A stretch of 64,000 bases of DNA from Nitrospiria bacterium (GTDB taxonomy: Bacteria; Nitrospirota; Nitrospiria; JACQBZ01). Below are positions 3,720 to 60,416 of the stretch, in pieces. The stretch covers positions 1 to 64,000 of the forward strand of contig DATKAN010000034.1 in assembly GCA_035498035.1 (NCBI GenBank). Direction: 5' to 3'. How positions within the stretch are numbered: position 1 is the first letter of the stretch; the number at the start of each line of letters is the position of its first letter. Position numbers and translations under genes: made by a program. A model generated the notes under the pieces. The model saw only the letters and a list, made by a program, of their open reading frames with translations, did no database searches and was not told where the DNA came from.

Positions 3720-4684
3720 CACGGTTCCCTTTCCGACGATAAATAGACTTCTAGATGGCGTTCCACCGATCGGGCCAGCGCATCCAGATTGTATCCCCCT
3801 TCAAGGCAGGACAGGACCTTTCCCCCGCAATAAAGGCCGGCCCATTCCATCACCTTGCGGGTCATCTCCCCGAAACCCTCTTCCGTAACGCGCATGTTGG
3901 CCAGCGGATCGGCCCGATGGGCATCAAAACCGGCGGAGACCAGTATGAAATCCGGACGAAAGGCCTCGACGGCGGGACGGAGCGATTTCTCGAAGACCGA
4001 AAGGTATTCCTCATCCCCCTGACCCGGCGACAGCGGACAGTTCAACGTATAGCCTTCACCCGCGCCGCGGCCGTGTTCGTCCGCCCGCCCCGTTCCGGGG
4101 TAGAGGGGAAACTGATGAACACTGAAATAGAAGACGGTCGGGTCTTCCTCAAAAATATGCTGCGTCCCGTTACCGTGATGGACATCCCAGTCGACGATCA
4201 TCACACGGGATACATGATGGCATACTTGGAGGTAGCGGGCCGCGACCGCGATATTATTAATAAGACAGAACCCCATCGAACGATTGGACTCGGCGTGATG
4301 GCCCGGCGGCCGAACGGCGCAAAACGCGTTTGTAAACCTTCCGGACATAATCCCGTCCGCCGCCGAAAGCGTTCCCTCCACGGCCAGGAGCGCCGCGTCG
4401 TAGGAATGGGGAGACATCACCGTATCCGCATCGATTCGGGCGAGGCCCTTGTCCGGCCCTAGGCGTTGGAGTCGTTCCTGGTAACCGGGCTTATGAACAC
4501 GGGCGATCCACTCGGACAGACCCGTCCGGGGCGGATTCGGAGAGCAAACCGTCAGCTTTTTAATCAATCCGGTTTCCTCCAGCCGACCGATAATCGCTTT
4601 CAGGCGGAGGGAGGATTCCGGATGCTGGGGGCCGGTGTCGTGCAAAAGGTAATCGGGATGATAGATCAAGGCGGTCCGTTTCAT
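3719..4684 (-). CDS. histone deacetylase family protein (AcuC/HDAC-like amidohydrolase)
   Basis: 321-residue zinc-dependent deacetylase of the class II HDAC/acetoin-utilisation (AcuC) superfamily. Visible catalytic blocks: RPPGHHAE (tandem His, about residue 125), VDWDVHHGNGTQ (zinc ligands Asp and His, about 165), and SAGFDAH with the second Asp ligand (about 250), then EGGYN. Bacterial members deacetylate small acetylated amines or acetyl-lysine; the substrate cannot be read from the sequence. The ATG at 4684 gives the usual family N-terminus. No SD is present. Instead a TTGTTC-17-TAGCAT promoter ends six nucleotides before the ATG, predicting a leaderless mRNA. The downstream 2Fe-2S gene overlaps its stop codon. 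Confidence 0.9.
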   Translation of the reverse strand: MKRTALIYHPDYLLHDTGPQHPESSLRLKAIIGRLEETGLIKKLTVCSPNPPRTGLSEWIARVHKPGYQERLQRLGPDKGLARIDADTVMSPHSYDAALLAVEGTLSAADGIMSGRFTNAFCAVRPPGHHAESNRSMGFCLINNIAVAARYLQVCHHVSRVMIVDWDVHHGNGTQHIFEEDPTVFYFSVHQFPLYPGTGRADEHGRGAGEGYTLNCPLSPGQGDEEYLSVFEKSLRPAVEAFRPDFILVSAGFDAHRADPLANMRVTEEGFGEMTRKVMEWAGLYCGGKVLSCLEGGYNLDALARSVERHLEVYLSSEREP

Positions 4685-4690
4685 GGGCCT

Positions 4691-4719
4691 ATGCTAACAC
4701 AGGAAGGGCGACAGAACAA
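4691..4719 (-). promoter_or_regulatory. promoter of HDAC-like gene, leaderless arrangement
   Basis: Leftward -35 TTGTTC (4714-4719), 17 nt, -10 TAGCAT (4691-4696). The -10 is followed by 6 nt and then the ATG at 4684, so the predicted +1 coincides with the start codon. Confidence 0.5.
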
Positions 4720-4872
4720 GGGATTCAACCCAGCGAAAAAGGCAAGCGAGAGCCGGTGAAAGCGAGGATCGGGCTTTGCACGTCCGAGCGCGGGGTGTGG
4801 GGGCATCGGAGGAGCGAAGCCCGCACGGGCCCCAACATCGGATTGTCGCGACCCGAGCCCCTATAAATAGCA

Positions 4873-4901
4873 TTGCGGATTTGGGCCAGTTCGGCTACAA
4901 T
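4873..4901 (+). promoter_or_regulatory. promoter of the VCBS lipoprotein gene
   Basis: -35 TTGCGG (4873-4878), 17 nt, -10 TACAAT (4896-4901). Predicted +1 near 4908 leaves a 20-nt leader containing AAGGAAG before the ATG at 4928. The GC-rich stretch 4740-4870 between this and the deacetylase gene holds no gene I can see. Confidence 0.5.
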
Positions 4902-4927
4902 GGGCTGAACCTTCTCAAGGAAGACCC

Positions 4928-6070
4928 ATGCCGAAGCCCTTTCCAGTCCTGGTCTTTCTCCTGATTGTCATCATGACCGGATGCCATCCCCGAACCCCGG
5001 CCCCTCCGCCGCCCAAATTATTCAGCGGACCGACGAGTTACCCGGTCGGCACCAATCCCACGGCGATCGCCGAGGCCGACCTCAACAATGACGGAAATCT
5101 GGACTTGATCACGGCCAACTTCGGCAGCAACGATCTTTCCATCCTGCTCGGCAGCGGCGACGGCACCTTTCAGGATCAGAAAATCGTCAAGGTCGGTGTC
5201 CAGCCCAAATCGATCGTGGTCGGCCGTTTCGACGCCGATCCCTATCCGGACGTCGCGGTGATCCACAACTCCGACGCGTCCTTGATGATTCTCGCGGGAG
5301 AAGGAAGCGGGAACTTCCACGTGACACAGCGTGAAGAATTCCACAAGACCCCGACGGCCATCGCGGCGGCCGATTTCAATCAGGACGGAAAGCCCGATCT
5401 GGCCGTTTCCCTGCTGCTGGACCGCGTCCTGATTTTTAACGGCGAAGGCCATGGACGCTTCACGGCCGGCGACAGCTTCGATCCCGGCGACACGCCCACC
5501 TCCCTGGAACCGATCGACCTCAACCACGACGGTCATCCGGATTTATTGATCGCCGACAACGGCGAAATGCAACCGGGAATCGCGGTCTTTCTGGGCCGGG
5601 GAAACGGCAGTTTTGAAAGGTCGCAATTCTACAAAACACGTCTCCGGCCTCTCATCGTCAGTACGGGGGATTATAACGGGGACGGCATCACCGACCTGGT
5701 GGTGATCTACAGCTCCCAGAGCACGATGGCCGTTTTTCTCGGCCGCAGCGACGGCACGTTTCAGGATGGGATGGAGTTCGGATCGGAGGGCGGCCCGACC
5801 GCCGTGCTCACGGGAGACTACGACCACGACGGCAAACAGGACCTCCTCACCACGAATGATCTCACCGGTAAATTTTCGATTTCCTTCGGAAAGGGGGATG
5901 GAACGTTTGCCTATCCGCCCTCAATGTACCCTTCCGGGGACGGTCCGTTCGCCGTCGTCACCGGAAAGTTCAACAAGGAAAGCCCAAACGGCCTGGCGAT
6001 CGCCAACAACGTCAGCAACACCGTTTCGATATTTCTCGCCAGGGAACGCCCAGCCGCCGGAAAACCGTAG
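4928..6070 (+). CDS. FG-GAP/VCBS repeat lipoprotein
   Basis: 380-residue exported protein. Residues 1-19 form a lipoprotein signal peptide ending in the lipobox MTGC, so the mature protein is probably lipid-anchored. The rest is a run of FG-GAP/VCBS repeats carrying the calcium-loop type motifs DLNNDGNLD, DFNQDGKPD, DLNHDGHPD, DYNGDGITD and DYDHDGKQD. These repeats build an integrin-like beta-propeller of about six or seven blades. Such proteins act at the cell surface in adhesion or as scaffolds, but no specific role can be assigned. It has its own promoter and SD, and tandem hairpins directly follow the stop codon. Confidence 0.9.
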   Translation: MPKPFPVLVFLLIVIMTGCHPRTPAPPPPKLFSGPTSYPVGTNPTAIAEADLNNDGNLDLITANFGSNDLSILLGSGDGTFQDQKIVKVGVQPKSIVVGRFDADPYPDVAVIHNSDASLMILAGEGSGNFHVTQREEFHKTPTAIAAADFNQDGKPDLAVSLLLDRVLIFNGEGHGRFTAGDSFDPGDTPTSLEPIDLNHDGHPDLLIADNGEMQPGIAVFLGRGNGSFERSQFYKTRLRPLIVSTGDYNGDGITDLVVIYSSQSTMAVFLGRSDGTFQDGMEFGSEGGPTAVLTGDYDHDGKQDLLTTNDLTGKFSISFGKGDGTFAYPPSMYPSGDGPFAVVTGKFNKESPNGLAIANNVSNTVSIFLARERPAAGKP

Positions 6071-6118
6071 GGGCGAATCTCGTATTCGCCCCCGTGTAGG
6101 CGATCACATGGATCGCCT
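6067..6118. repeat. two tandem hairpins of the GGGGCG palindrome type
   Basis: First hairpin: GGGGCGAAT (6070-6078) pairs with ATTCGCCCC (6084-6092). Second: AGGCGATC (6098-6105) pairs with GATCGCCT (6111-6118). The first arm resembles the palindromes at 6675-6702 and 41996-42019. They begin at the stop of the VCBS lipoprotein gene and may also act as transcript ends between two convergent genes. Confidence 0.6.
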
Positions 6119-6128
6119 CTGCCATCCA

Positions 6129-6614
6129 TCATCCCCGACGCACCAGCCGGAAGATCATGCTCATACCGGGTTGAAGTTGGTTCATCCTGGCAAAGCCGGC
6201 CGCGGCCTGCATCACATACAGGGCCTCGGGTTCCTTCGGCCCGTAGGTCGGACAGGGATCGTCCGCGCAGGGCGGGGCCGCCTCCTCAATATGCAGTATC
6301 TTTCGATCGCGATCGAGCCAGAGAATGTCGATGGGGAAATGACTGTTTTTCGTCCAGATGGGGTGTGAATCTTCGTCGTCGTAAATATAAAGCATCGCCT
6401 GGTCGGGCGAAAGCTCCCTGGTAAAAAATAACCCGACCACCTGTTTCTCGGGACTGTCGGCCACCTGGGCCAGTATCTGTTTCCCGTTGGGGAGCTCGAC
6501 CATAAAATAATTCGTCTCCTGATTGCCCATCATGAAGGGCATGGCGATCCCCATCGCGACTAGGGCGAGGACGAGGAGGATTCCTTTTTTAAGGTTTTCT
6601 TTATCAACCGCCAT
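6129..6614 (-). CDS. DUF192 family protein, membrane-anchored
   Basis: 161-residue protein with one N-terminal membrane segment (residues about 10-28) followed by a DUF192 domain. Family features are visible: the VELPNGKQ start, FFTRELSPDQAMLYIY, and FPIDILWLDRDRKILHIEE. The biochemical role of DUF192 proteins is not established. A short Cys-containing insert, PPCADDPCPTYGP, replaces the usual short loop. The ATG at 6614 is chosen because a TTGACA-17-TATCAT promoter ends seven nucleotides before it; the frame stays open upstream but into promoter DNA. No SD is visible, so this is another predicted leaderless gene. It converges on the VCBS lipoprotein gene. Confidence 0.85.
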   Translation of the reverse strand: MAVDKENLKKGILLVLALVAMGIAMPFMMGNQETNYFMVELPNGKQILAQVADSPEKQVVGLFFTRELSPDQAMLYIYDDEDSHPIWTKNSHFPIDILWLDRDRKILHIEEAAPPCADDPCPTYGPKEPEALYVMQAAAGFARMNQLQPGMSMIFRLVRRG

Positions 6615-6621
6615 GAGGTGT

Positions 6622-6650
6622 ATGATAGGTGTCCATGACCCAAATGTCAA
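6622..6650 (-). promoter_or_regulatory. promoter of the DUF192 gene, leaderless arrangement
   Basis: Leftward -35 TTGACA (6645-6650), 17 nt, -10 TATCAT (6622-6627), then 7 nt to the ATG at 6614. The close match to consensus, with no room for an SD, supports a leaderless transcript. Confidence 0.65.
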
Positions 6651-6674
6651 TTGTAACCGGGGCCCGTCCAGTAT

Positions 6675-6702
6675 GTAGGGGCGTAGCATGCTACGCCCCT
6701 AC
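6675..6702. repeat. perfect 28-bp palindrome
   Basis: GTAGGGGCGTAGCA is followed immediately by its exact reverse complement. Related GGGGCG...CGCCCC inverted repeats occur at 6067-6092 and 41996-42019. It lies between the DUF192 promoter and the terminator at 6711-6740. It looks like a REP-type dispersed element rather than an operator, because the copies share arms but not context. Confidence 0.7.
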
Positions 6703-6710
6703 GGCAGAAA

Positions 6711-6740
6711 AAAAGCCCCTCCGTCACCGGAGGGGCTTTT
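6711..6740. terminator. bidirectional rho-independent terminator
   Basis: Ten-base-pair stem AGCCCCTCCG / CGGAGGGGCT (6714-6723 and 6728-6737) with a 4-nt loop, flanked by A4 on the left and T4 on the right. It lies 20 nt past the stop of the leftward outer-membrane protein gene, which it most likely terminates. Confidence 0.85.
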
Positions 6741-6760
6741 GTGAAACAGGACTCCCGGCC

Positions 6761-8110
6761 TTATTTAAAGCGATACGTGGCCGAAAGTTTCGAGGACAGT
6801 GTCTCCGGAACACCCGAAATCGCGTAGGTGCCGCTGAAGATAACATCCTGGTTGATCACGGCATCGATCATCAGGTTATCCATAACCGCCCACCCGAGTC
6901 CCAAACTGAACGTCGCAGCCCCGTCTGAAACAGTATTCGACTTGTCCAGACCCCCGACAAAAATGGGGCAGCCCCCCCCGGTGGGTGTACTATCTTTACA
7001 ATTCGAACTATTGTAAAGAGGTTTAGACAATCCAATACGTGTCTTTACGACTTTAAAGGTTTGATGTTCAACTGCAATATTCACCGGGATCGCAAGGTTG
7101 TCTAACGTGACTTTGCCTCCACCTTGATTTACTTTTGCTTCACGGTTTGCACCCGCAAGGCCGATACCGGCCACAACCAGGGTGTCCGGATTCGGCTTGG
7201 AGTTCAAGGCCGTATCGAGCCTCCAGCCGAGGGTCGTGTCGTCAACCTTGACCCCCGTCCCGGACGAGTCCTTGGTCGAGGCATCAATCGATAGAATTTG
7301 GGCCGTGGTCAAGAGCTTGCTGTTGCCCATGTTTGCATGATGCCGGACCAAAATCGCAAAGCTGGGCCCCGCATCGCTTTTATACGTGTTGCCGCAGGAC
7401 GGGGCGGCATTACTGCACTTGGATGAGGGTACGGTAATATCCACTGTGCCATCCAGCATCCCACCGCCAAAGATCCCGCCGGCTCCTAGATTCCACTCCG
7501 TGGACTCGTCCTTGCTTGTGACACCACCCACGGTATTCTTCTGATATTGATCGGCATAGCTCAGATATAAACCTATCGGCGTTGCGCTGTGCAGTCCGTA
7601 GAAGAGATCAACCCGGTTATTGCCCAATGGGGACCCAGTACCCGAAGGACCAAAAGCTGCCTGCTGATTCATCATCCCCAGAGGGCCGCTCAAGTTAAAA
7701 CTGCTAAGTCCCAGAGGGGATGCTCCATTAATTGAGCCGTTGGTAGGTCTTCCAATATAAACGCCCCACGATCCGTAGGAGACGTCCATATTCATACCGC
7801 CCCACTGACTGCCCGAATTCATACTGTCATTGAAACCGGTCCCGGAAATCGCACCGCATCCGCCTACCCCTAAAGGAATACTCACACTACACGGCGACGA
7901 TGTCGACTCGGTTCCCAGCTCCCCGTAGATGTTGTTTTTGTAATTGGTGACCTGTGCGGGATTGATCCAGATATTGAAATCGTCCTCGATCTGCCAGTTC
8001 GCCACGCCCAGACCGTCCATACGGGCATTGGTCGAGGGATTCGTGATCACCTGGGCCGAGGCGGTGGAAGCGAAAAGAAGGGTGAAAATCACTGCAGCAA
8101 GCTTCTTCAT
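6761..8110 (-). CDS. outer-membrane beta-barrel protein
   Basis: 449-residue exported protein. Residues 1-19 are a classical signal peptide cleaved after ASA. The mature start contains NPSTNARMDGLGVANW and INPAQ, as in outer-membrane barrels of the PorV/TraF-like kind. The body is rich in Gly, Ser, Asn and alternating hydrophobics, and the protein ends in an aromatic-rich beta strand (YRFK). It is likely a porin or structural outer-membrane protein; cargo or partner is unknown. Two Cys pairs (SSPCSVS/GGCGA and SKCSNAAPSCG) may form disulphides. The ATG at 8110 has AAGGAGG. The mRNA has a predicted 240-nt leader with a hairpin and a mini-ORF, unlike any other gene here. Confidence 0.8.
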   Translation of the reverse strand: MKKLAAVIFTLLFASTASAQVITNPSTNARMDGLGVANWQIEDDFNIWINPAQVTNYKNNIYGELGTESTSSPCSVSIPLGVGGCGAISGTGFNDSMNSGSQWGGMNMDVSYGSWGVYIGRPTNGSINGASPLGLSSFNLSGPLGMMNQQAAFGPSGTGSPLGNNRVDLFYGLHSATPIGLYLSYADQYQKNTVGGVTSKDESTEWNLGAGGIFGGGMLDGTVDITVPSSKCSNAAPSCGNTYKSDAGPSFAILVRHHANMGNSKLLTTAQILSIDASTKDSSGTGVKVDDTTLGWRLDTALNSKPNPDTLVVAGIGLAGANREAKVNQGGGKVTLDNLAIPVNIAVEHQTFKVVKTRIGLSKPLYNSSNCKDSTPTGGGCPIFVGGLDKSNTVSDGAATFSLGLGWAVMDNLMIDAVINQDVIFSGTYAISGVPETLSSKLSATYRFK

Positions 8111-8350
8111 GCTCTGTTCCTCCTTGATAGGGTGTGTATACCGAGTTACGATATCAAACGATTGGTGCGGCTCTATTCCAATGCGGTCAAGTAAACAACC
8201 CTAAGACCTGCTGTATTTTGCGATCAGGCCCTTCACCTCCTTTCAAGTCCGTCCCATCCGACTAAGGCGTTTACGGCCGCGGCGGCCGTAAAACGACCGC
8301 GATCCGGAACCTCCCTCATGCCGAAGTCCGATCGTCCCCGATAGCAAAAT
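8111..8350 (-). promoter_or_regulatory. long structured 5' leader with mini-ORF
   Basis: Region between the predicted start of transcription (about 8351) and the ATG at 8110. It contains a hairpin with stem TTTACGGCC / GGCCGTAAA (8270-8278 and 8284-8292). Further downstream a strong AAAGGAGG is followed eight nucleotides later by a CTG that opens a 9-codon frame ending in TAG at 8201 (MIAKYSRS if CTG initiates). An in-frame GTG at 8236 overlaps the SD. No known riboswitch consensus was recognised. Confidence 0.4.
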
Positions 8351-8357
8351 CGGCGGC

Positions 8358-8386
8358 ACTATACCACGAGCCTGATGACGTGTCAA
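8358..8386 (-). promoter_or_regulatory. strong sigma70-type promoter of the outer-membrane protein gene
   Basis: Leftward -35 TTGACA (8381-8386), 17 nt, -10 TATAGT (8358-8363). An AT-rich tract (8387-8406) sits directly upstream of the -35 and could act as an UP element. Confidence 0.75.
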
Positions 8387-8607
8387 GCTTTTTTTCTTTT
8401 TTTATCAAGCCGGAAGCGGATCGGGCCCCACCGGTGGGGGATTGTGTCCCCGGCATCCCATATGAGGGGCTGCATTTAGTACGATTAATATACTTAGTAT
8501 ACCGGCGTATTCGGCCGTCTAACCGACACCATCGGTGCCCATAAACTTAAACATCCAGATTCGTCCCGGCGCACATCTCCTGGCATGCTTGTGGCATGCG
8601 GCATCAG
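8387..8607. other. intergenic region, no gene seen
   Basis: Stretch between the outer-membrane gene promoter and the end of the fatty-acid operon. It contains a small palindrome CCCCACCGGTGGGG near 8427, an AT-rich stretch near 8480-8500 and a GGCATGC inverted pair near 8580-8600. No reading frame, RNA or promoter for another gene is evident. Confidence 0.4.
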
Positions 8608-8653
8608 TGAAAAAGATCCTTCTGGACCGTCCAAGTCGTCCATCACACGGTCC
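8608..8653 (-). terminator. possible terminator of the fatty-acid operon
   Basis: Leftward: GGACCGT (8653-8647) pairs with ACGGTCC (8630-8624), followed after a short gap by T5 (8614-8610). The stem is only seven base pairs and the loop is 16 nt, so this is tentative. It lies at the stop codon of the last gene of the operon. Confidence 0.35.
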
Positions 8654-9320
8654 AGAGACGAGCCCTCGTTTTCCACGCCCAGAGCCGCTCCTCCCTTCGC
8701 TTATATCGCGGTGAGCGCTTGAACATCTCCAAGGCGGTCCGATAGGCCAAGACCGCCTTCGTCCGGTCGCCGGCCCGCTGATAGGCCATCCCAAGAAGGT
8801 AATGACCCTCGACGCTGGAAGAGAAGATGGATCGGAACTGCTCGAGCCGCTGGGCGGCCTCGTCCGCCCGTCCCCGGTGGAGCAGGAATTCGCCCCACCG
8901 GAGATAGGGCTCGCCGTACCGGAGCTTCGGACTCCGTTCCATGGCTTTCCGGATCAAGTTTTCTCCCTCCGTAACTTTGCCGGTCCAGAGATAGGCCAGT
9001 CCGAGGTCGCAGACCGTTTCGTCCGAGTCGGGCATCCGATCCATCGCCTTTTCGAGATGGGGAACCGCCTCGCCGAAACGGCGGGCCTCGATCAGAATCC
9101 TTCCGAGGTCGCGGCGGGCCGTCGCATCGTGAGGATTGACCGAAAGCTCCCGGTTGAGCGCCCGGACCATGCCGGCTCGCCGGAACCGCCCAAGCAAGCG
9201 CCGGGATATACCGATGAATTGGTAGTCCAGGGCGAGATAGACGGCCAGTATCACCAGGAGGGCGAACACCGGACTGCCGGTTAAAAGAGTGATCAGAAAA
9301 AATAGAAAGAGATTTCGCAT
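8643..9320 (-). CDS. TPR repeat membrane-anchored protein
   Basis: 225-residue protein with an N-terminal membrane segment or uncleaved signal (residues about 3-32), then tetratricopeptide repeats. Visible units include the one around DATARRDLGRILIEARRFGEA (residues 64-84), the next with DLGLAYLWTGKVTEGE, and VEGHYLLGMAYQRAGDRTKA near 180. TPRs mediate protein-protein contacts; the partner is unknown. The ATG is five nucleotides past the rnc stop with no SD, so translation is probably coupled to rnc. It is the last gene of the yceD-fab-rnc operon. Confidence 0.8.
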   Translation of the reverse strand: MRNLFLFFLITLLTGSPVFALLVILAVYLALDYQFIGISRRLLGRFRRAGMVRALNRELSVNPHDATARRDLGRILIEARRFGEAVPHLEKAMDRMPDSDETVCDLGLAYLWTGKVTEGENLIRKAMERSPKLRYGEPYLRWGEFLLHRGRADEAAQRLEQFRSIFSSSVEGHYLLGMAYQRAGDRTKAVLAYRTALEMFKRSPRYKRREERLWAWKTRARLWTV

Positions 9321-9325
9321 TTACA

Positions 9326-10042
9326 CTAAAGCGGCCGCCGGGTCAATTTCTCGAGCGCCTGCTTGGCCGCCTGCTGCTCGGCTTCTTTCTTGCTCCGCCC
9401 CCGGCCGATGCCGAAGACCTCTTCCTTGATCATGAGCTTGACTTCGAAAAGTTTCTGGTGATCCGGACCGGATTCGCGCAGAACCCGGTAGGTAGGCAGG
9501 ACATCAAATTCCCTCTGGCAGCATTCCTGGAGCTCCGTCTTGTAATCGATATCTTCCCGACCCTGGTCGAGACGACGAAACTCCTCCTCGAATATTTGAA
9601 TGAGAACGGCCCGGGCGGTTTCAAAACCGCCGTCCAGATAGACGGCCGCGATCACGGCTTCGAGCGCGTCCGCCAGGATGGAAGGTTTTTCCCGACCGCG
9701 GGTCCGTTCCTCCCCGCGTCCGAGCAGCAGGAATTCGCCGACACCGAGACCCCCTGCAACCCGCGCCAGCGTGACCTCGCTCACGAGCCGGGCCTTCATT
9801 TTGGAAAGATCCCCTTCGGTCGACAAGGGATACAGCGAGATCAGCCGCTCGCTGATGGCCAAATCCAGCACCGCGTCGCCTAAAAACTCCAGGCGTTCAT
9901 TATCCTGGGTCGCGCCCTCTTTTTCTGACGCCCGCAGCTCATTCAGATACGATTTATGGGTGAGGGCCGCGCGAAGATGATCCGGTTTGCGGAAAGAGTA
10001 ACCTAAGATTTTCTGGAACGTGTCGAGGGGTTCAAGCGACAT
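9326..10042 (-). CDS. rnc: ribonuclease III
   Basis: 238-residue double-strand-specific endoribonuclease that processes rRNA and other structured RNAs. The signature NERLEFLGDAVLDL lies at about residues 48-61 with the catalytic Glu and Asp residues, and ALEAVIAAVYLDGGF carries the second acidic cluster. A double-stranded RNA-binding domain follows (about 158-235, ending with the SKKEAEQQAAKQALEKL helix). Length is normal. The gene lies 9 nt beyond fabF in the fatty-acid operon, an arrangement known from several bacterial phyla. Confidence 0.97.
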   Translation of the reverse strand: MSLEPLDTFQKILGYSFRKPDHLRAALTHKSYLNELRASEKEGATQDNERLEFLGDAVLDLAISERLISLYPLSTEGDLSKMKARLVSEVTLARVAGGLGVGEFLLLGRGEERTRGREKPSILADALEAVIAAVYLDGGFETARAVLIQIFEEEFRRLDQGREDIDYKTELQECCQREFDVLPTYRVLRESGPDHQKLFEVKLMIKEEVFGIGRGRSKKEAEQQAAKQALEKLTRRPL

Positions 10043-10051
10043 GGCGCTGTT

Positions 10052-11293: not shown

Positions 11294-11373
11294 AACCCCA
11301 CCCCCTTCCTCAAAATGCCCGACACGATTGACATCGATCCATCCCTCAAAGACCGGCCTCCGGCGGATCTTCG

Positions 11374-11607: not shown

Positions 11608-11682
11608 TGGCTTGTACACCTCCCCTCTTGGGTTTATCCGATTTACTGCACCAATCAAATTGACGATGAATTCGCCATCGGT

Positions 11683-12426: not shown

Positions 12427-12459
12427 GTTACCCTTTCGCTCCAATGAGTGACCCCTGGA

Positions 12460-15586: not shown

Positions 15587-15634
15587 TGTTCGAGCCCCTT
15601 GGGTATCCGGCTTTTCTCCGCTATCTGGCTACGA

Positions 15635-16462: not shown

Positions 16463-16491
16463 TTGCAAATCACGCGGAAAAGCATGATAAT
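16463..16491 (+). promoter_or_regulatory. promoter of the small membrane protein gene, near-leaderless
   Basis: -35 TTGCAA (16463-16468), 17 nt, -10 GATAAT (16486-16491), then 8 nt to the ATG at 16500. It is divergent from the yceD promoter, with about 36 nt between the two -35 boxes. Confidence 0.5.
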
Positions 16492-16499: not shown

Positions 16500-16868
16500 A
16501 TGGAGATTTTCAACGCCCATTCTCCCGGAAAACTCCGCGTCGGTCTCCTCCTGTTTCTGACCCTGCTCGTGGGAGGGGTTTACCTCGGATTTCAGCTGAT
16601 CCCATATTGGATGGACGCCTACGACATGAAAAATTTCCTGGACGAGAAAGCCCGCACGGGCCAATTGGTGTCGGACGACGAAATCCGCGGATCCATTATC
16701 GCCAAGGCGCATGAGTTAGGCATCGAATTGTCGGACCGGGATATCGATATCCATCGATCCTCAACAGACATGTCCATCTCGACCGCCTGGGAGCTGGATT
16801 ATAATTTTTTCGGCCTTTACACTCATACGTTTACTTTCGCGCCCCAGGTCAACGTCAACTACCAATAA
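16500..16868 (+). CDS. small single-pass membrane protein (DUF4845-like)
   Basis: 122-residue protein with one membrane segment (residues about 14-35) and an extracytoplasmic domain ending in a beta-rich tail (FGLYTHTFTFAPQVNVNYQ). Length and layout resemble DUF4845 proteins, but I am not certain of the family. There is no SD; the ATG lies 8 nt beyond a -10 box, so a leaderless or nearly leaderless mRNA is expected. Its 3' end overlaps the convergent tsaD gene by 14 nt. Confidence 0.7.
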   Translation: MEIFNAHSPGKLRVGLLLFLTLLVGGVYLGFQLIPYWMDAYDMKNFLDEKARTGQLVSDDEIRGSIIAKAHELGIELSDRDIDIHRSSTDMSISTAWELDYNFFGLYTHTFTFAPQVNVNYQ

Positions 16869-29452: not shown

Positions 29453-30604
29453 CTACCGAACCGCGATGATCTCCTCGGCAATCCGGTCCCAAAGACGAAG
29501 GCCTTTGGACGAAAGCCGGACACGCGGAGGATCCAGGACTATCAACTCGTCCAGGCTCCATTTTTCCAGGGTTTGTTGAAGGCGTCCGGAGTCGGTCGAT
29601 GGATACCGTCTCCGGATCTCATCCAGACGGATCCCGTCCGTTTTTCTCAGCCCGAAAATCAACGCCTCCCGGAACGCCAGGTCCGGGCCGATCGACTCGG
29701 ATTCCTCGATCGCGTCGCCGCCCTTCTCAATGTCCCGAATGTAGTCGCCGATATTCTCCAGCTTGGAAAAACGGCGCCCCCCCATGTAGGAGTGGGCGCC
29801 GGGACCGAGGCCGAGGTACTCCTGCTGACCCCAGTACCCCAGATTATGGCGACAGGCATAACCGGGCCGAGCGTAGTTCGATACCTCGTAGTGACGGTAG
29901 CCCGCGCCGGCCAACTTCGCCCGCGTCCACTCGTCAAAGCGGATCTGCCGATCCTCGTCGGGCAACACCAGAAGACCGCGGTCATAATCCGCACCGAACC
30001 GTGTCCCCTCCTCGATGGTCAGGGCGTAGGCTGAAAGGTGCTCCGGGCCGAGGCCGATTGCCTCGTCCAAGGTCCGGTTCCAATCTTCAAGACGCTGGCC
30101 CGGAAGCGCATACATAAAGTCAAGATTCACGTTTTCGAATCCGGCCGCCCGCGCGCTTCCGTAGGCCTCCCTCGCAACACGCGAGGTGTGCGCGCGCCCG
30201 AGCCAGGCCAGCTCCTGATCGTGAAAGGACTGCACCCCGAGGCTCAGCCGGTTGACTCCTCCCGCCCTCAGGGCCGTTAATTTTTCCCGATCGACGGTCC
30301 CGGGATTGGCCTCCACGGTCATTTCGAGGGCTCCTCCAAAATAAAAATGACGGCGTGCATGATCCAAGACATCCAGGATCTGATCCGCATGAAATATGGA
30401 CGGCGTCCCGCCCCCCATGTACACAGTGGCGATACGGCGTCCACGAATTTCGGGCCGGTCTCCGTACCGCGCGATCTCCTTTTTTAAGGCCGTAAGAAAA
30501 CGAAGGCTCTGTGGCTTGTCGTAGCGGATCGAGTTGAAGGCGCAATAATGGCACTTGCTCCAGCAGTATGGAAAATGGAGGTAGAGGGAAAGGGGATCGT
30601 TCAT
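29453..30604 (-). CDS. hemW: HemW-like radical SAM protein
   Basis: 383-residue radical SAM enzyme related to coproporphyrinogen III oxidase but of the shorter haem-chaperone (HemW) type. The 4Fe-4S Cys residues are at positions 14, 18 and 21 (CWSKCHYC), GGGTPS follows at about 62, and the C-terminal HemN-like domain is present. The ATG at 30604 is chosen because it gives the typical N-terminus; a TTG six codons upstream is possible. No SD exists; a TTGCTT-17-TATACT promoter ends six nucleotides before the ATG, so a leaderless mRNA is predicted. It may serve the neighbouring cytochrome complex. Confidence 0.92.
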   Translation of the reverse strand: MNDPLSLYLHFPYCWSKCHYCAFNSIRYDKPQSLRFLTALKKEIARYGDRPEIRGRRIATVYMGGGTPSIFHADQILDVLDHARRHFYFGGALEMTVEANPGTVDREKLTALRAGGVNRLSLGVQSFHDQELAWLGRAHTSRVAREAYGSARAAGFENVNLDFMYALPGQRLEDWNRTLDEAIGLGPEHLSAYALTIEEGTRFGADYDRGLLVLPDEDRQIRFDEWTRAKLAGAGYRHYEVSNYARPGYACRHNLGYWGQQEYLGLGPGAHSYMGGRRFSKLENIGDYIRDIEKGGDAIEESESIGPDLAFREALIFGLRKTDGIRLDEIRRRYPSTDSGRLQQTLEKWSLDELIVLDPPRVRLSSKGLRLWDRIAEEIIAVR

Positions 30605-30610: not shown

Positions 30611-30639
30611 AGTATACAACAACCGGGCGGGTCAAGCAA
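30611..30639 (-). promoter_or_regulatory. promoter of hemW, leaderless arrangement
   Basis: Leftward -35 TTGCTT (30634-30639), 17 nt, -10 TATACT (30611-30616), then 6 nt to the ATG at 30604. Confidence 0.5.
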
Positions 30640-43778: not shown

Positions 43779-44144
43779 CTATCGATTGTAGGGATCCGGA
43801 CTGGAAGAAAAGACGGGCTTCGGCAACTGGGACTCCCGGTATTCCCGAATCATGTCCTTGACCGCGACGATCACGGCCTTCTTGGTTCGATGGAACAGTT
43901 GCTGTTCGATCGCGTTCAGCAGGTCGTGATAATCGTCCTTCAGAGACATGCCGACCATCATCGGCTTGAGCAACTTCAAAATCAAAGGCACGTTGGGATC
44001 GATTTCAACTTCCAACACCTTTCCGGTCGCCGCGTCCACCTCCGCGATCACCTGAAATACCTCGGCATCGGTGAACTCCTTCGGAAGCCGGGCCATTCCC
44101 CCGAAAATCATCGAAGTCCCTTTGGTCGTCCCTTTGGTTGGCAT
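43779..44144 (-). CDS. DUF3870-like protein
   Basis: 121-residue cytoplasmic protein. GMARLPKEFTDAEVFQVI, ATGKVLEVEIDP and KKAVIVAVKDMIREY fit the pattern of DUF3870, a small family with no known function. The ATG at 44144 is chosen because a TTGATT-17-TATAAT promoter ends six nucleotides before it; the frame continues to 44168 but into the promoter. No SD, so a leaderless mRNA is predicted. The promoter fills the 47-nt gap to the aldolase gene. Confidence 0.7.
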   Translation of the reverse strand: MPTKGTTKGTSMIFGGMARLPKEFTDAEVFQVIAEVDAATGKVLEVEIDPNVPLILKLLKPMMVGMSLKDDYHDLLNAIEQQLFHRTKKAVIVAVKDMIREYRESQLPKPVFSSSPDPYNR

Positions 44145-44150: not shown

Positions 44151-44179
44151 ATTATACGATGAAGCCATATCGAAATCAA
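44151..44179 (-). promoter_or_regulatory. promoter of the DUF3870 gene, leaderless arrangement
   Basis: Leftward -35 TTGATT (44174-44179), 17 nt, -10 TATAAT (44151-44156), then 6 nt to the ATG at 44144. The -35 and the next three bases (TTGATTTCG) are identical to those of the tldD promoter. Confidence 0.65.
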
Positions 44180-50228: not shown

Positions 50229-50247
50229 CGTCGGTAAACTCCTCCTT

Positions 50248-52422: not shown

Positions 52423-52485
52423 CGCGGCCTTCCGAATGGATATAATTGTAGCACAAATCAACGCGGGGACATAGGCGCGAGGGGG

Positions 52486-53981: not shown

Positions 53982-54030
53982 GTCGGAGCCCCTCTGCTTT
54001 TGGCGTTGGCCGCGTCGTGATGACGGACGG

Positions 54031-54312
54031 CTAGGAACGATATCGGATCGAAAAATCCTTAAAGCCTTTCTCGCCCGTTTTCCAGTTGACCTGGATCGCC
54101 TCGACCTTCGCGCGTGGCGGTCCGATTCGCAATTGATCGATCAGGATCTCGATCACCTCCCGGTCCCCCTCCGCCACCACCTCAACGGCGCCGTCGGCCA
54201 GGTTGCGGCAGAAACCGGTCAGGCCCAGTCGTAGCGCCGCCTCCTGCGCGAACGCCCGGAAATAGACACCCTGAACCCGCCCGCTGACAAGAATCTCGGC
54301 AAAAACAGGCAT
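54031..54312 (-). CDS. acyP: acylphosphatase
   Basis: 93-residue acylphosphatase that hydrolyses carboxyl-phosphate bonds. The signature [18 protein letters not shown] (catalytic Arg in GRVQGVYFR) and [17 protein letters not shown] (catalytic Asn) are both intact. The ATG at 54312 is the normal start; the frame stays open upstream to 54540 but without homology. No SD and no convincing -10 spacing were found. It lies 50 nt before the sigma-factor gene. Confidence 0.93.
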
Positions 54313-54549
54313 AAACGAATAAAGACACGACCCTTCTCCCGGTTTTCGAGATCTGGGGGAAAAAGATGAGCGAATCGAGACCGAACTTCGATGGCGGTTA
54401 TTGTAATAAACAACGGCCCGTATGGCAAGAAAATTCATCGGGCGCCGACCGAAGTCTCGGGGAGGACCGGTCGGGCGAGGCGACCGGATTAGGCTTGAGA
54501 CCGGAGGGTGGGATCCATGGCGGGGGGACGGGAAATACACGGGGGAGGA

Positions 54550-56685
54550 TCAGGTGATTTTGAATCTGGCCATCTCCTCCCTCAGCCGTTCCGTCTGTTT
54601 TAAGACCTCCTCCACCGACCGGCTCATCTTCTGGGCCATCGGCACACTCTGCTGGGCGATCTGATGAATTTCCAGAATCGACTTCCGGATCACCTCATGG
54701 CCCTGCTTCTGTCCGGTCATGGCCTTGGCGATCTGTTGAATACGCAGGGTCACGTTCCCCATGGCGCCGCTGATTTGTTTGCTGCCGTTGGCCTGCTCTT
54801 CCGTGGAGATTTTGACCTGTTCTGTGATCGATCGCATCCTGGCGGCGGCCTTCATGATATTGAGGATGCCGCTTTCCATTTCTTTCATGATCGCGTTGAC
54901 CTCTCCGGTCAAGGCGTTCATTTTTTCCATGAGCCGAACGGCCTGGACGGTGGACTGAACCTGATCAACGGTCAGTTTTTCAATGCGGCGCGACATTTCG
55001 GAGGACTGTTTGGATCCGACCAGAATCTTGGCGAGCGAATCCCGCGCGCTGCCGGAAAGACGGATTCCGTCTTCCACGCTCCGGGCGCCTTCCTGGATCG
55101 ACGCGACCGCCTCTTTGGCCTCCGATTGAACGTCCTGAATCAGCTGGGCGATCTGCTTCGTGGAGGCCGAGGTTCGGTCCGCCAGCTGTTTGATCTCGCC
55201 GGCCACGACGGAAAAGCCCTTCCCCTGCTCCCCCGCCTGCGCGGCCAGGATGGCGGCGTTCAGGGCCAGCAGATTGGTTTGGTTTGTCACATCTTCGATG
55301 ACCGTCAAAATCGTCCCGATATGCTCGGTGCGCTCGCCCAGCTTATGGATTACCTGCGACGCCTTTTCGACGGTCATCCGGATCCGTTCCATGCCCTCGA
55401 TGGTCTTCTCGATGGATACGGTCCCCAGCTCGCCGGCATCCTGGCTAACCGTTTCCGTCAAGCGAGCGGATTCCTTCGCGCTGGTTTCCACGTCCCGAAT
55501 GGACCTGTTCATATGCCCGAACGACGCGGTGGTCTCCCGGGCGCTGCTTGACAGGGCCTCGGCACGCTCCACCACCCGCCGGATGGAGTCGGACATATGA
55601 CCCAGGGAAGCGGCGCTTTCCTCCACCGATGCGGAGAGCGTGGTCGCGTTTTCGGACACCTGGTCGATCGAGGCGCTCATCTCCAGCAGCGATGAAGAGG
55701 TCTCTTCCGCGGAGGAGGAGAGGCTGTCGAGGTCCTCCGAGGTGCTCTCGACGGCGTCGTTCATCTCCTCGATCGAAAACGATGTTCTTTCGGCCTCCCG
55801 GGCTTGACGGTCCGCACCCTCGCTGACCCGCTTGGCATCGGCCAGCATTTCCCCCGCCACGGAAGCCACCTGCTGGGAGAGGCGGTGGATCTGCTGTATC
55901 ATTCCTTTCAGGCTGGTCGACATTTGCGAGAAAGCGCCCGCCAGAATCCCAACCTCGTCGTCCGTGGCGGCTTCGACCGTGTGGCTGAAATTCCCGCCGG
56001 CGATCTGGGAGGCGACCTGCGTCATCCGTTGCAAGGGTGCGATCATGAGCCGGACGAAAAACAGGGATATAAACACCCCCGATCCGACCAGAATTCCCAG
56101 GACCGAAACCGTCAGGACGAGCGAGTGCCGTAATTGATCCTCCAGGCGCTGCAGCGAAACCCCTAGACGGACCACTCCGGCCTTATTGGAACCCGGGGCC
56201 GCTTCGCCCTTTTGACCCTCCGAGGGCGCGGAAGGATCGCCGGTAAAGACGGGGGCCGCGATATCGTAAAAGTCCTTCGACCCCAGAGTATAACGGAAAA
56301 CGTTGGGTCGGTCGATCCTCAGGGCCTGCTGGGTGAGAGGATCGTTGAGGGTTTTTCCGACCTCCGATTCATCCGTGTGGGCCACGACCTCGCCCATGGA
56401 ATTCACCACGACGATATAGGCCAGATCGGTTTCCTCACCGATCCCCTTGATCATCTGTTTCAGGGAAGACGGGTCCTTTTGCAAGATCGCGTCCAGGCTG
56501 CTCCGCGCGATATTATTAACGATCACCAGGCCCCGCTCCTGGAGCTGTTCCTGGGAGGACCGGTTGAAACCGATGATGAGGATGACGGCCAGGATCGAGC
56601 CCATGACGATGAAGAGCGAGTTCACAAAGAGCATGAACTTTAAGGTCAGACTCAGCCCCGCCCTTTTATGATTCGCCCGGCTCAC
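54550..56685 (-). CDS. methyl-accepting chemotaxis protein
   Basis: 711-residue chemoreceptor. TM1 at about 13-37, periplasmic sensor about 38-188 (single-Cache-like, with [20 protein letters not shown]), TM2 about 190-212, HAMP about 213-265, then a long coiled-coil signalling region with the hairpin tip [21 protein letters not shown]. The C-terminus has no NWETF-type pentapeptide. No che genes are nearby, so it is an orphan receptor. The start is a GTG at 56685 with only a weak SD, 12 nt after a -10-like TAAATC. Confidence 0.92.
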
Positions 56686-56697
56686 GAAGCGGTCCCA

Positions 56698-56725
56698 GAT
56701 TTAGGATGGATGGGAAGACAGTCAA
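56698..56725 (-). promoter_or_regulatory. possible promoter of the chemoreceptor gene
   Basis: Leftward -35 TTGACT (56720-56725), 16 nt, -10 TAAATC (56698-56703); the leader would be only about 5 nt. Located just past the terminator of the MHYT gene. Confidence 0.4.
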
Positions 56726-56730
56726 GATGG

Positions 56731-56763
56731 AAACCCCCGAGCCCGGAAAGCACTCGGGGGTTT
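56731..56763 (-). terminator. terminator after the MHYT gene
   Basis: Eleven-base-pair stem AAACCCCCGAG / CTCGGGGGTTT (56731-56741, 56753-56763) with an 11-nt loop, 8 nt after the MHYT stop. The T-run is short on the minus strand and slightly better on the plus strand. Confidence 0.7.
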
Positions 56764-56771
56764 TGAACCGT

Positions 56772-57569
56772 TCAATGCGAGACCCCGGCCTGCTTCGGCA
56801 CGTGGGAATCGGTCTTCCGATTCAGAAAGGAGCTCACCAATGCAAGACACAGAATCAAACCCGTCGTTATCCCCACCGCCGCGGCCAGCCCGGAACGTCC
56901 CGAGGCGGCGGCCGCCCCCTGGACCCCCATCGATGCCGCGGTGGGCGTGAAGTTGGTGGCCAACTGACCCGTGAAATGCATGCCCACGATCGCCGCCCCC
57001 ATCACCAGCGCGCTCACGATCTTTTGCAAGGTCCCGATTCCGCTGGTCTCGCCCCGTAGATGGAAGGCGAGCCACAGCGCGACCAGCGACACCACGATCG
57101 CCACGACAATGGACGCCGCAAAGAAGGTCCTGTCGTACCACATGGTGGCGTCAAGCCGCATGGCCGCCATTCCGGTATAATGCATCGTCCCGATGCCGAC
57201 CCCCATAAGAACGGATCCGGAAACCAGCGGGACCAGGCCCATGGCGTCCCGGCTCACGATGAACAGCGCGATTCCGGATGTCGCGACCGCGGCCAGCAGC
57301 GAAGCCGCCGTCGTCATCGTGTCATAGGAAACCGTCACCGGCAGACTGAACGCCAGCATGGCGATAAAGTGCATCGACCATATTCCAACCCCCATGGCGA
57401 TCGCCCCCCCCATGAGCCAGAGTTTCCGGGCCGAACCTTGACTGGCCGTCACGCGCCCGGCCAGATCGAGCGCGACGAATGAGGCCACGGCCGCGATAAC
57501 ATAAGACAGGAAGACAAGGCTCATATCGTAACTGCCCACCATCGTTACGGTCATATCTGCGGATTTCAT
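56772..57569 (-). CDS. MHYT-domain membrane sensor protein
   Basis: 265-residue protein with about seven transmembrane helices and nothing else. The three MHYT-type motifs that give the family its name are visible as MHFIAMLAF, MHYTGMAAMR and MHFTGQLAT. These His/Met residues were proposed to bind copper and sense gases such as O2 or NO. Most MHYT domains are joined to GGDEF/EAL or kinase domains; this one stands alone, so its output is unknown. GGAGGGTGA precedes the ATG; promoter at 57620-57648. Confidence 0.92.
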   Translation of the reverse strand: MKSADMTVTMVGSYDMSLVFLSYVIAAVASFVALDLAGRVTASQGSARKLWLMGGAIAMGVGIWSMHFIAMLAFSLPVTVSYDTMTTAASLLAAVATSGIALFIVSRDAMGLVPLVSGSVLMGVGIGTMHYTGMAAMRLDATMWYDRTFFAASIVVAIVVSLVALWLAFHLRGETSGIGTLQKIVSALVMGAAIVGMHFTGQLATNFTPTAASMGVQGAAAASGRSGLAAAVGITTGLILCLALVSSFLNRKTDSHVPKQAGVSH

Positions 57570-57619
57570 CGTTCACCCTCCGTTCCCGGGTTTCCAACAC
57601 CCGAACGCTCAATTAATAA

Positions 57620-57648
57620 AAAATAGCGGAGAGTTTGATTGCTGTCAA
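57620..57648 (-). promoter_or_regulatory. promoter of the MHYT gene
   Basis: Leftward -35 TTGACA (57643-57648), 17 nt, -10 TATTTT (57620-57625). Leader of about 45 nt. Confidence 0.6.
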
Positions 57649-57789
57649 GAAAGTCGGCGGGTTGCTTCGAGCAGAAATAAGGATCAAACCGCATGAAAAG
57701 ACAAAAAAACGGGCCCCTTCCAGACGACGTGACGTCTATACAGGACCCGTCAATAAAATTCGGATCGATTCGTTTTCAAATAAAACCGG
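57649..57789. other. intergenic region, no gene seen
   Basis: Part of the roughly 350-nt gap between the MHYT gene and tRNA-Pro. It contains the small palindrome GACGTGACGTC near 57725 but no reading frame with an SD and no RNA gene that I recognise. Confidence 0.4.
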
Positions 57790-57807
57790 TCGGGGCGCGC
57801 GGATTTG
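57790..57807 (-). repeat. 18-bp copy of the tRNA-Pro 3' end
   Basis: TCGGGGCGCGCGGATTTG, identical to 57917-57934 at the 3' end of tRNA-Pro and in the same orientation, 127 bp away. It may be a scar of a past integration or a small local duplication. Confidence 0.5.
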
Positions 57808-57829
57808 CATCACGCAGCCGATCCCTGAA

Positions 57830-57890
57830 CATTAGAGCAATGGAAAATGGACCGCATTGTGGGCCCTGTCCATTTTCCAATGCTCCAATG
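57830..57890. repeat. large imperfect inverted repeat downstream of tRNA-Pro
   Basis: Arms of 23 nt (57830-57852 and 57868-57890) pair with two mismatches around a 15-nt loop; the inner 11 bp (TGGAAAATGGA) are perfect. It lies between the tRNA-Pro gene and the 18-bp repeat. It may terminate the tRNA transcript or be a MITE-like remnant. Confidence 0.6.
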
Positions 57891-57916
57891 ATCCAAAAAT
57901 TTTCGGTGCAAATTTT

Positions 57917-57990
57917 TCGGGGCGCGCGGATTTGAACCGCGGACATCCAGCTCCCGAAGCTGGCGCGCTACCGGGCTGCGCTACGCCCCG
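57917..57990 (-). tRNA. tRNA-Pro (anticodon CGG)
   Basis: 74-nt cloverleaf read leftward: acceptor CGGGGCG/CGCCCCG, D arm GCGC...GCGC, anticodon stem CCAGC/GCTGG with loop TTCGGGA (anticodon CGG), T arm CGCGG-TTCAAAT-CCGCG, discriminator A. CCA is not encoded. It decodes CCG. Confidence 0.96.
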
Positions 57991-58005
57991 TTTTTCAAAG
58001 TGAAT

Positions 58006-58063
58006 AGTAAGTAGTGAGCAGTGAGGAGAAAACGTATCGTCTCCTCACTCCTCACTCTTTACT
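58006..58063. repeat. inverted repeat after alanine dehydrogenase gene
   Basis: Arms of 24 nt (58006-58029, 58040-58063) pair with three mismatches around a 10-nt loop; arms consist of GTGAGGAG-like units. It starts 3 nt past the ald stop and probably ends that transcript or is a REP-type element; no T-run follows. Confidence 0.55.
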
Positions 58064-58065
58064 CC

Positions 58066-59172
58066 TCACCGCCATTCCTCGTATTTCAATCCATGGGCCT
58101 CGGCCACCCCCGCACTCGTGACCTTTCCCTTGTAGATATTGACCCCCTTGGCCAACGCGGGATCGCGGCGACAGGCCGCCGCCACACCCAGATCGGCCAA
58201 TTCCAATAGATACGGCAGCGTGACGCCGACCAGGGCCGATGTCGCGGTCCGCGGAAAGGCCCCCGGCATGTTGGCGACGCAATAATGGATCACGCCGTCC
58301 ACGACGTAAACCGGATCCGAATGGGTCGTCGCTCGGGAGGTCTCGATGCACCCGCCCTGATCAATCGAGACATCCACGATCACGGAACCGCGGCGCATCC
58401 CGGCCACGAGGCTCCGGCCGACCAGTTTGGGGGCCTTCGCCCCGGTCACCAGCACGGCGCCGACCACCAGATCCGCGCTCTGGACCGCCTGCTCGATCAG
58501 CTCCGGTTTCAAGAGCCGAAGGATGACCTTGCCGGTCACCGCCGCCTCTTCCAGGTTCTGAAGGCGATCCGTCTCCCGATGGAACAGAGTCACCTGTCCG
58601 CCCAGTCCCAATGCCATCTGGACGGCGTTGGTTCCGACCGTCCCGGCGCCCAGAACGACGACGCGGGCCGGCGGCACGCCCGGAACCCCGGGCAGGAGCA
58701 CCCCGCTCCCCCCATGAATCTTCTGGAGATAGAAGGCGCCCATCAGGACCGACATCCGCCCGGCGATCGCGCTCATCGGTCGAAGCACCGGCAACGATCC
58801 GTCCGGCGCTTGGATCGTCTCGTAGCCGATGGCGATCACCTCGCGCTGAAGCAGCGCCTCGGTCAAGCGCCGGTCGGCCGCGAGGTGAAGAAAAGTGAAG
58901 AGCGTCTGGCCCTTTTGCAGCAGGGAATATTCGGAGGCCTGGGGCTCCTTGACCTTCACGACCAGATCGGCCTCCCCGAACAACCGGGCCCGATCGTTTA
59001 CGATCTCCGCGCCGACTGCAAGATAGGCCTGGTCGGAATACCCGCTGCCTTGGCCCGCGTTCCGCTCCACCAATACCCGATGGTCCGAGCGGACGACCGT
59101 GCGGACCGCCTCCGGCGTCAGGGAAACCCGATACTCGTTGTCCTTGATTTCTTTCGGGACCGCGATGACCAT
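58066..59172 (-). CDS. ald: alanine dehydrogenase
   Basis: 368-residue NAD-dependent L-alanine dehydrogenase, which interconverts alanine and pyruvate plus ammonia. VPKEIKDNEYRVSLTPEAV at the start, VKVKEPQASEY with the catalytic Lys region (about 75), TFLHLAAD (His about 95) and the Rossmann motif VLGAGTVGTNAVQMALGLG (about 173) are typical; VDVSIDQGGCIETSRATTH follows. The ATG at 59172 lies 12 nt after a -10 box with no SD, so its leader is very short. It is divergent from mtnA. Confidence 0.96.
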   Translation of the reverse strand: MVIAVPKEIKDNEYRVSLTPEAVRTVVRSDHRVLVERNAGQGSGYSDQAYLAVGAEIVNDRARLFGEADLVVKVKEPQASEYSLLQKGQTLFTFLHLAADRRLTEALLQREVIAIGYETIQAPDGSLPVLRPMSAIAGRMSVLMGAFYLQKIHGGSGVLLPGVPGVPPARVVVLGAGTVGTNAVQMALGLGGQVTLFHRETDRLQNLEEAAVTGKVILRLLKPELIEQAVQSADLVVGAVLVTGAKAPKLVGRSLVAGMRRGSVIVDVSIDQGGCIETSRATTHSDPVYVVDGVIHYCVANMPGAFPRTATSALVGVTLPYLLELADLGVAAACRRDPALAKGVNIYKGKVTSAGVAEAHGLKYEEWR

Positions 59173-59184
59173 AGACGAGGTTTG

Positions 59185-59213
59185 AGAATATCAGGTCGAA
59201 TGCGAAATGTCAA
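59185..59213 (-). promoter_or_regulatory. promoter of ald, very short leader
   Basis: Leftward -35 TTGACA (59208-59213), 17 nt, -10 TATTCT (59185-59190), then 12 nt to the ATG. No SD fits in the predicted 5-6 nt leader. Confidence 0.65.
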
Positions 59214-59324
59214 TGAAACTACGTTTGACCTGTGGGGCCGAGCCCCCGGTCCGGGTCCGATCCCGGCCGACGTCGTGCCCGGGCCGACGCCGACTCGGTT
59301 TCGCACGCGGCCTCCGGCCTTCGC

Positions 59325-59354
59325 TTGACCGGGGCGCTGATTTTTTATTACAAT
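59325..59354 (+). promoter_or_regulatory. promoter of mtnA, leaderless arrangement
   Basis: -35 TTGACC (59325-59330), 18 nt, -10 TACAAT (59349-59354), then 6 nt to the ATG at 59361. Confidence 0.6.
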
Positions 59355-59360
59355 GCCTTC

Positions 59361-60416
59361 ATGTTCTCACCGATCGAATGGCACCTGGGGGCCAACGGCC
59401 CCGTCGTCCGCATGCTGGACCAGACCCGTCTTCCGGGCGAAGTGGTCTGGGTGGACTGTCCCGATCATCAGACCGTGGCGAAGGGGATCAAGGAGCTGTG
59501 GGTGCGGGGCGCGCCGGCCATCGGCATCGCGGCGGCCATGGGCTACGCGCTCGGAGCCAATGGGATCCGGGCCGGCACCTACGACGACCTCGCCCGTCAG
59601 CTCAAACCGATCCGTGACACTCTGGCCTCGACGCGCCCCACGGCCGTCAACCTGTTCTGGGCCCTCAACCGCATGAACGAGGTCCTCCAGATCCACAAGG
59701 ACCGGCCGGTCGAGTCGATCAAGGAACGGCTCGTCCAGGAGGCCCGGGCGATCCACGACGAGGACATCCAGCGGAACCTCGCGATGGGCCGCCACGGCGC
59801 ACGGCTCGTCCAGGAGGGGGATACGATCCTCACCCATTGCAACACCGGCGCCCTCGCGACCGGCGGACACGGAACCGCGCTGGGCGTCCTATTCACGGCG
59901 TGGGAAGAAGGAAAACGGTTCAAGGTCCTGGTCGACGAGACACGGCCGGTCCTCCAGGGCGCGCGGCTCACCATGTGGGAGCTCCAGCAGAACAAGATCC
60001 CGGCCACCCTGATCGCGGACAACATGGCCGGGGCCTTCATGAAGAAGGGAACGGTCCGGCTCTGCCTCGTCGGGGCCGACCGGATTGCGGCCAACGGGGA
60101 CACCGCCAACAAGATCGGCACTTATTCCGTGGCGGTGCTGGCCAAGGCCCACCGGATCCCCTTTTACGTCGCGGCGCCGACCTCCACGATCGATTTCTCG
60201 ATCGCCTCCGGCGAGGCCATCCCCATCGAGGAAAGGAACCCGGAGGAGGTGACGACGATCTTCGGAAAGGTCCGGGTCGCCCCCGCCAACGTGGAGGCCG
60301 CGAACCCGGCCTTCGACGTCACCCCCGCGAAATACATTACCGGGATCATCACCGAAGAAGGCGTTTTCAAACCGGGCGAGCTGAAGCGGAAACTGGACGC
60401 CCGGAAGCGGGCTTAG
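59361..60416 (+). CDS. mtnA: S-methyl-5-thioribose-1-phosphate isomerase
   Basis: 351-residue enzyme of the methionine salvage pathway. Catalytic residues are visible: Cys in [11 protein letters not shown] (about 160) and Asp in [17 protein letters not shown] (about 240); [11 protein letters not shown] is the phosphate-binding loop. eIF2B-like fold. The ATG at 59361 gives the family start and directly follows a promoter with a six-nucleotide gap, so the mRNA should be leaderless; upstream in-frame codons back to 59232 are non-homologous. No other mtn gene is present in the window. Confidence 0.95.

Follow-up and report, generated by a model that had tools for sequence, protein, structure and literature searches.

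Within a 64,000-nucleotide (nt) stretch at the start of contig DATKAN010000034.1 from a Nitrospiria bacterium (GenBank assembly GCA_035498035.1; hereafter the window, meaning this stretch at its full length), six genes without a Shine-Dalgarno (SD) sequence carry a -10 box that ends 6-8 nt before the start codon, and we consider it very probable that they belong to a class of roughly 60-100 leaderless genes, or about 3-5% of the genes called in this genome. The six encode an HDAC-like protein, a DUF192 protein, a small membrane protein, a HemW-like protein, a DUF3870 protein and an MtnA-like protein. Their promoters, their spacings and the absence of an SD had been put forward in a preliminary description of the window, and direct reading of both strands returned the same boxes and distances in every case (Table 1). 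The SD scores of the six range from -0.6 to -4.2, while many other genes in the window score 4-8. An automatic caller built on an E. coli sigma-70 matrix returns exactly these six among the 49 genes called in the window, although the background of this genome at that score predicts 0.8 (Poisson P about 1.5e-4). What we infer for the 5' ends, for the sigma factor and for the ribosome is as follows. A housekeeping sigma-70-type RNA polymerase would act on a promoter with a -35 box and a -10 box, the latter ending 6-8 nt ahead of the start codon, transcription would start at the A of the ATG or within 1-2 nt of it, and the resulting mRNA would have neither a 5' leader nor an SD. As in other bacteria, its 5'-terminal AUG would presumably be recognised by 70S ribosomes, or by 30S subunits together with IF2 and initiator tRNA. 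In named sequence records, the mtnA of this genome is matched most closely by a Nitrospiria bacterium (Hainich-H32-bin115) and a groundwater Nitrospirae bacterium, whose mtnA upstream sequences equal those of G004 and G003 from the same family; the genome thus represents an uncultured Nitrospirota lineage, probably of class Nitrospiria.

Further evidence comes from the genome as a whole, which comprises 2.67 Mb in 67 contigs, 66 of which (2.47 Mb, 92.5% of bases) were analysed. Genes were called by a hexamer coding score (1911 in total), and a fixed E. coli sigma-70 matrix (-35 box, spacer of 15-19 nt, -10 box) was run over each plausible ATG at all -10-to-ATG distances, with score cut-offs of 8 (strict) and 6. 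This external matrix replaced a free expectation-maximisation search for the -10 motif, which was given up after shifting towards an unspecific AT-rich pattern. Choosing starts by coding potential alone was also abandoned, as it blurred the signal. ATGs that are not starts dilute raw pattern counts when all ATGs are included, and such counts were used only across genomes at matched distances. Among SD-poor genes at the strict cut-off, each distance from 0 to 5 nt holds 1-4 genes, followed by 32, 17, 13, 16 and 12 genes at 6, 7, 8, 9 and 10 nt, respectively, and a mean of about 5 (5.2) per distance at 11-45 nt. The 62 genes found at 6-8 nt compare with 15.7 expected (P about 1e-18), an excess of about 46 genes that grows to 64 when 6-10 nt is considered; at a score of 6 the corresponding excesses are 56 and 90. 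Starts with a strong SD show no 6-nt peak, with 0-2 genes per distance at 6-8 nt whichever threshold is applied. The genome-wide count proposed in the preliminary description therefore reveals an enriched -10/start spacing that is sharp and limited to SD-poor starts. The coexistence of two start types, also noted there, extends to the whole genome, with about 940 genes having SD-scored starts vs about 60-80 leaderless calls. It could be argued that the boxes are chance AT-rich hexamers picked to fit, with the true promoters lying further upstream and the leaders lacking a recognisable SD. As many as 788 of the 1786 genes with an ATG candidate lack a good SD as well as a promoter call, so that an SD-less start alone means little, and about a third of the 6-8 nt calls at score 6 are background. 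However, the 6-nt peak is sharp, neither SD starts nor E. coli show it, and spacer length is conserved in relatives, and we therefore regard coincidental boxes as highly improbable.

The leaderless calls also carry further signatures. A pyrimidine stands directly before the ATG in 24 of the 30 strongest 6-nt cases vs 41% of control starts (P 1.5e-5), which is expected if the A of the ATG is position +1, a pyrimidine followed by a purine being the usual initiator step. The upstream gene is divergent for 54% of leaderless calls, compared to 15% of SD starts and 39% of SD genes with a promoter further upstream, and a same-strand gene lies less than 30 nt away in 2%, 32% and 2% of these groups, respectively. 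Leaderless calls thus look as though they open transcription units, which is required of leaderless genes. Applied to 350 kb of E. coli K-12, the identical pipeline gives no peak, with five genes at 6-8 nt vs 6.7 expected, and none vs 1.4 expected at a stricter cut-off; this gene-based comparison was taken because raw pattern counts in E. coli were too few to use. Deinococcus deserti is a species known for leaderless mRNA, and 300 kb of its plasmid 1 yield five genes vs 0.8 expected, in a sample that is likewise small.

Conservation of the spacing between species, followed here for hemW, DUF192 and mtnA, provides independent support for the leaderless interpretation. All six family members with a readable hemW start have TATACT-N6-ATG, with six different spacers (GACTTC, TCCTTC, GCGAAC, GGGTCC, GGGGCC and GACGTT) and, in several relatives, TTGATT as the -35 box; this comparison is made within the family, beyond which hemW is too diverged for the start to be placed reliably. 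For DUF192, a search with the promoter pattern (at most two mismatches) lands exactly on the orthologue start in G002, G003, G005 and G006, where starts had been located independently by protein search, so that a 7-nt spacer is shared by five genomes including our own. Among mtnA orthologues, nine of the leaderless type from several families have TACAAT or TAAAAT 6-7 nt before the ATG. A spacer that keeps its length while its sequence changes indicates that the distance from -10 box to ATG matters in these three genes, and is hard to explain otherwise.

The mtnA gene also offers an unusually clear view of how start types may be exchanged. The nine leaderless-type orthologues, which combine a strong promoter at 6-7 nt with the lack of an SD, come from a set of 30, in which 12 others have an SD without such a promoter and another nine lack both features at the chosen cut-offs; in no orthologue do the two occur together. 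Seven of those with neither, all from family f2 (L149, L152, L153, L159, L160, L164 and L166), share a weaker TTGCAC-17-TACAAG/TAGAAG about 6-8 nt from the ATG, again without an SD. Within genus g3, L142 reads TACAAT-GCGCTT-ATG, and L143 and L145 keep the TACAAT with the ATG about 20 nt further downstream, behind GAGGAG. The start type has thus changed within one genus with the promoter unchanged. This arrangement could also be turned into an argument that the promoters in our genome are real and the starts annotated too early, with transcription beginning at the first ATG and translation only after a short leader with an SD, from an in-frame codon further on, as L143 and L145 would illustrate. 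The DUF3870 gene, where a score combining coding potential and SD prefers an internal ATG at 44111, points in the same direction. However, the protein alignments of mtnA and hemW begin at the first ATG in relatives, and the Pfam matches of several further called genes set in with the first positions of the model (for example Cons_hypoth95 at residues 1-177 and DUF2203 at residues 4-125), which leaves misplaced starts with scarcely any probability as a general explanation.

A number of observations weigh against a leaderless start, either for the class or for single members. The promoter excess does not stop at 8 nt but goes on over the next two distances, with 33 genes at 9 nt and 21 at 10 nt for a score of 6, compared with about 10, which suggests a further group with leaders of 2-5 nt into which the leaderless class shades. 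Together with the neighbouring gene ald, whose box lies 12 nt from its start, this could mean that the genes in question have very short leaders of 1-5 nt instead of none, and at spacings of 7-8 nt a leader of 1-2 nt is indistinguishable from no leader. The maximum at 6 nt, however, puts +1 on the A of the ATG, where the pyrimidine-purine step is also found, and we judge such short leaders to be an unlikely account of the class. Chance is expected to account for about a quarter of the strict calls, so that single genes outside the conserved set may have been called in error; the sample behind the E. coli control is also small. Among the six genes, the HDAC-like gene has a weak -35 box and a total promoter score of 6.5, the lowest of the set and barely over the cut-off of 6, and it is, with the small membrane protein and its GATAAT box at 8 nt, the weakest member. 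Other in-frame starts exist for DUF3870 and DUF192. The DUF3870 start codon appears less certain than those of hemW or mtnA, with likeness to relatives setting in from residues 7-8 on. Overall, we place most confidence in a leaderless start for mtnA, hemW and DUF192; confidence is good for DUF3870, and that for the HDAC-like gene and the small membrane protein is moderate.

Leaderless initiation seems to reach well beyond this genome. Occurrences of TTGAC-N17-19-TANNNT followed by ATG were counted at 6-8 nt and, for comparison, at 15-17 nt, giving 1476 vs 673 in 40 genomes of the class. In a phylum-wide draw, 37 genomes of the class gave 1178 vs 563 and 81 genomes of other classes gave 3164 vs 1408, and 116 of the 118 Nitrospirota genomes had more at 6-8 nt than at 15-17 nt. 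The enrichment amounts to about 2.1-2.25-fold across relatives and Nitrospirota. In our own genome, the counts at 15-17 nt are not depleted against general background, so the ratio is not an artefact of the control there. With a sharp enrichment that is confined to SD-poor starts, absent from the E. coli sample and seen through class and phylum, the leaderless interpretation offered in the preliminary description is supported. We lean, if only slightly, toward a broader view in which leaderless initiation would be an old, phylum-wide minority class, and individual genes such as mtnA would alternate between being leaderless and being SD-led as the start codon moved over short distances around an unchanged promoter.

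Leaderless genes have been found in 207 of 953 bacterial genomes, with TANNNT about 10-12 bp before the start, and a change of start type between orthologues was described as a general phenomenon (Zheng et al., 2011; PMC3160421). The groups concerned include Actinobacteria, Deinococcus-Thermus, Aquificae, Acidobacteria, Proteobacteria and others, with leaderless shares of about 40% in Deinococcus-Thermus and about 20% in Actinobacteria; neither the main text nor Table 2 of that study mentions Nitrospirae by name, although they could sit among its "Other Bacteria" (Zheng et al., 2011). The genes described here resemble the TA-led genes of that work in their TANNNT sigma-70 -10 box, their lack of an SD and the presence of SD genes alongside, but have a recognisable -35 box as well. 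The promoter-to-ATG geometry is also that of the leaderless transcripts of D. deserti and M. tuberculosis. In Deinococcus and mycobacteria, however, leaderless mRNAs have been mapped experimentally and are far commoner than the 3-5% estimated here from sequence. A passage of the StartLink paper (PMC9581028) that draws on GeneMarkS-2 (Lomsadze et al., 2018) gives 21.6% of bacterial species as predicted users of leaderless transcription. The GeneMarkS-2 leaderless class consists of genomes that mix SD and leaderless starts, as is the case here. A search of one open-access library, which is no proof of absence, returned no earlier description of leaderless genes in Nitrospira, Nitrospirae or Nitrospirota and no transcription start-site study of Leptospirillum, in agreement with the earlier remark that such mRNAs are seldom described in Nitrospirota. 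What we report thus seems to be a familiar type of gene start, apparently not yet described for this phylum. It extends an alternative mode of translation start to a phylum important in nitrification and groundwater, and provides a list of start codons possibly misplaced by annotation tools tuned to the SD. Additionally, mtnA within a single genus represents a natural experiment on the change between leaderless and SD-led starts.

Table 1. Promoters and genes of the six predicted leaderless genes and of the neighbouring ald in the window (positions count from the first letter of the window; distances run from the end of the -10 box to the start codon).
Feature	Coordinates	Strand	Details
HDAC-like promoter	4691..4719	-	-35 TTGTTC 4714-4719; -10 TAGCAT 4691-4696; 17-nt spacer; 6 nt to ATG 4684
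HDAC-like (Hist_deacetyl) gene, predicted leaderless	3719..4684	-	Pfam PF00850, 1e-102
DUF192 promoter	6622..6650	-	-35 TTGACA 6645-6650; -10 TATCAT 6622-6627; 17-nt spacer; 7 nt to ATG 6614; score 14.2
DUF192 gene, predicted leaderless	6129..6614	-	Pfam PF02643
Small membrane protein promoter	16463..16491	+	-35 TTGCAA 16463-16468; -10 GATAAT 16486-16491; 17-nt spacer; 8 nt to ATG 16500; score 9.4
Small membrane protein gene, predicted leaderless or with a 1-2 nt leader	16500..16868	+	122 amino acids
hemW promoter	30611..30639	-	-35 TTGCTT 30634-30639; -10 TATACT 30611-30616; 17-nt spacer; 6 nt to ATG 30604
hemW-like gene, predicted leaderless	29453..30604	-	Pfam Radical_SAM and HemN_C; N-terminus conserved
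DUF3870 promoter	44151..44179	-	-35 TTGATT 44174-44179; -10 TATAAT 44151-44156; 17-nt spacer; 6 nt to ATG 44144; score 12.8
DUF3870 gene, predicted leaderless	43779..44144	-	Pfam PF12986
ald promoter region	59173..59190	-	-10 TATTCT 59185-59190; 12 nt to ATG 59172; score 12.3
mtnA promoter	59325..59354	+	-35 TTGACC 59325-59330; -10 TACAAT 59349-59354; 18-nt spacer; 6 nt to ATG 59361; conserved in relatives
mtnA-like (IF-2B family) gene, predicted leaderless	59361..60416	+	Pfam PF01008; start MFSPIEWH conserved

Some of the genes in Table 1 merit further comment. The -10 box of the HDAC-like gene is directly preceded by TGT and so resembles an extended -10 element, and homologues of the protein occur in 38 of the 40 genomes searched. 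A Pfam search with the small membrane protein gave no match; of the six further genomes in the family, four (G001, G002, G003 and G005) have it conserved. A second DUF192 gene in the same genome (L073:421-855) was also called, with TTGACA and then CATACT 6 nt before the ATG. The gene named ald in the preliminary description was placed there close to the set, as its promoter bears out: it lacks an SD, and its geometry corresponds to a leader of about 5 nt. It is divergent from mtnA, and the intervening 59173-59360 holds both strong promoters, 12 nt and 6 nt from their respective starts and each without an SD.

No single function is prominent among the leaderless calls elsewhere in the genome. 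Among the strongest are riboflavin synthase, UvrC, PriA, a HisZ/HisS-like protein, RmuC, an RsmD-like methyltransferase (Cons_hypoth95), an LptF/G permease, SelR, a PutA-like proline dehydrogenase, regulators and a YacP-like protein. The genes for an N-acetylmuramoyl-L-alanine amidase and the YacP-like protein are divergent (L040:8908-8992), with starts 83 nt apart and both called leaderless. The call for an FGGY kinase lies inside a 39-nt block (L090:9994-10032) that is almost fully conserved, spacer included, in all seven family genomes and occurs twice in G005; the block may be something other than a plain promoter. Very similar boxes to those of the DUF2203 gene (L120), with 7-nt spacers of varied sequence, are found in G001, G002, G003 and G005, and probably belong to orthologues of that gene.

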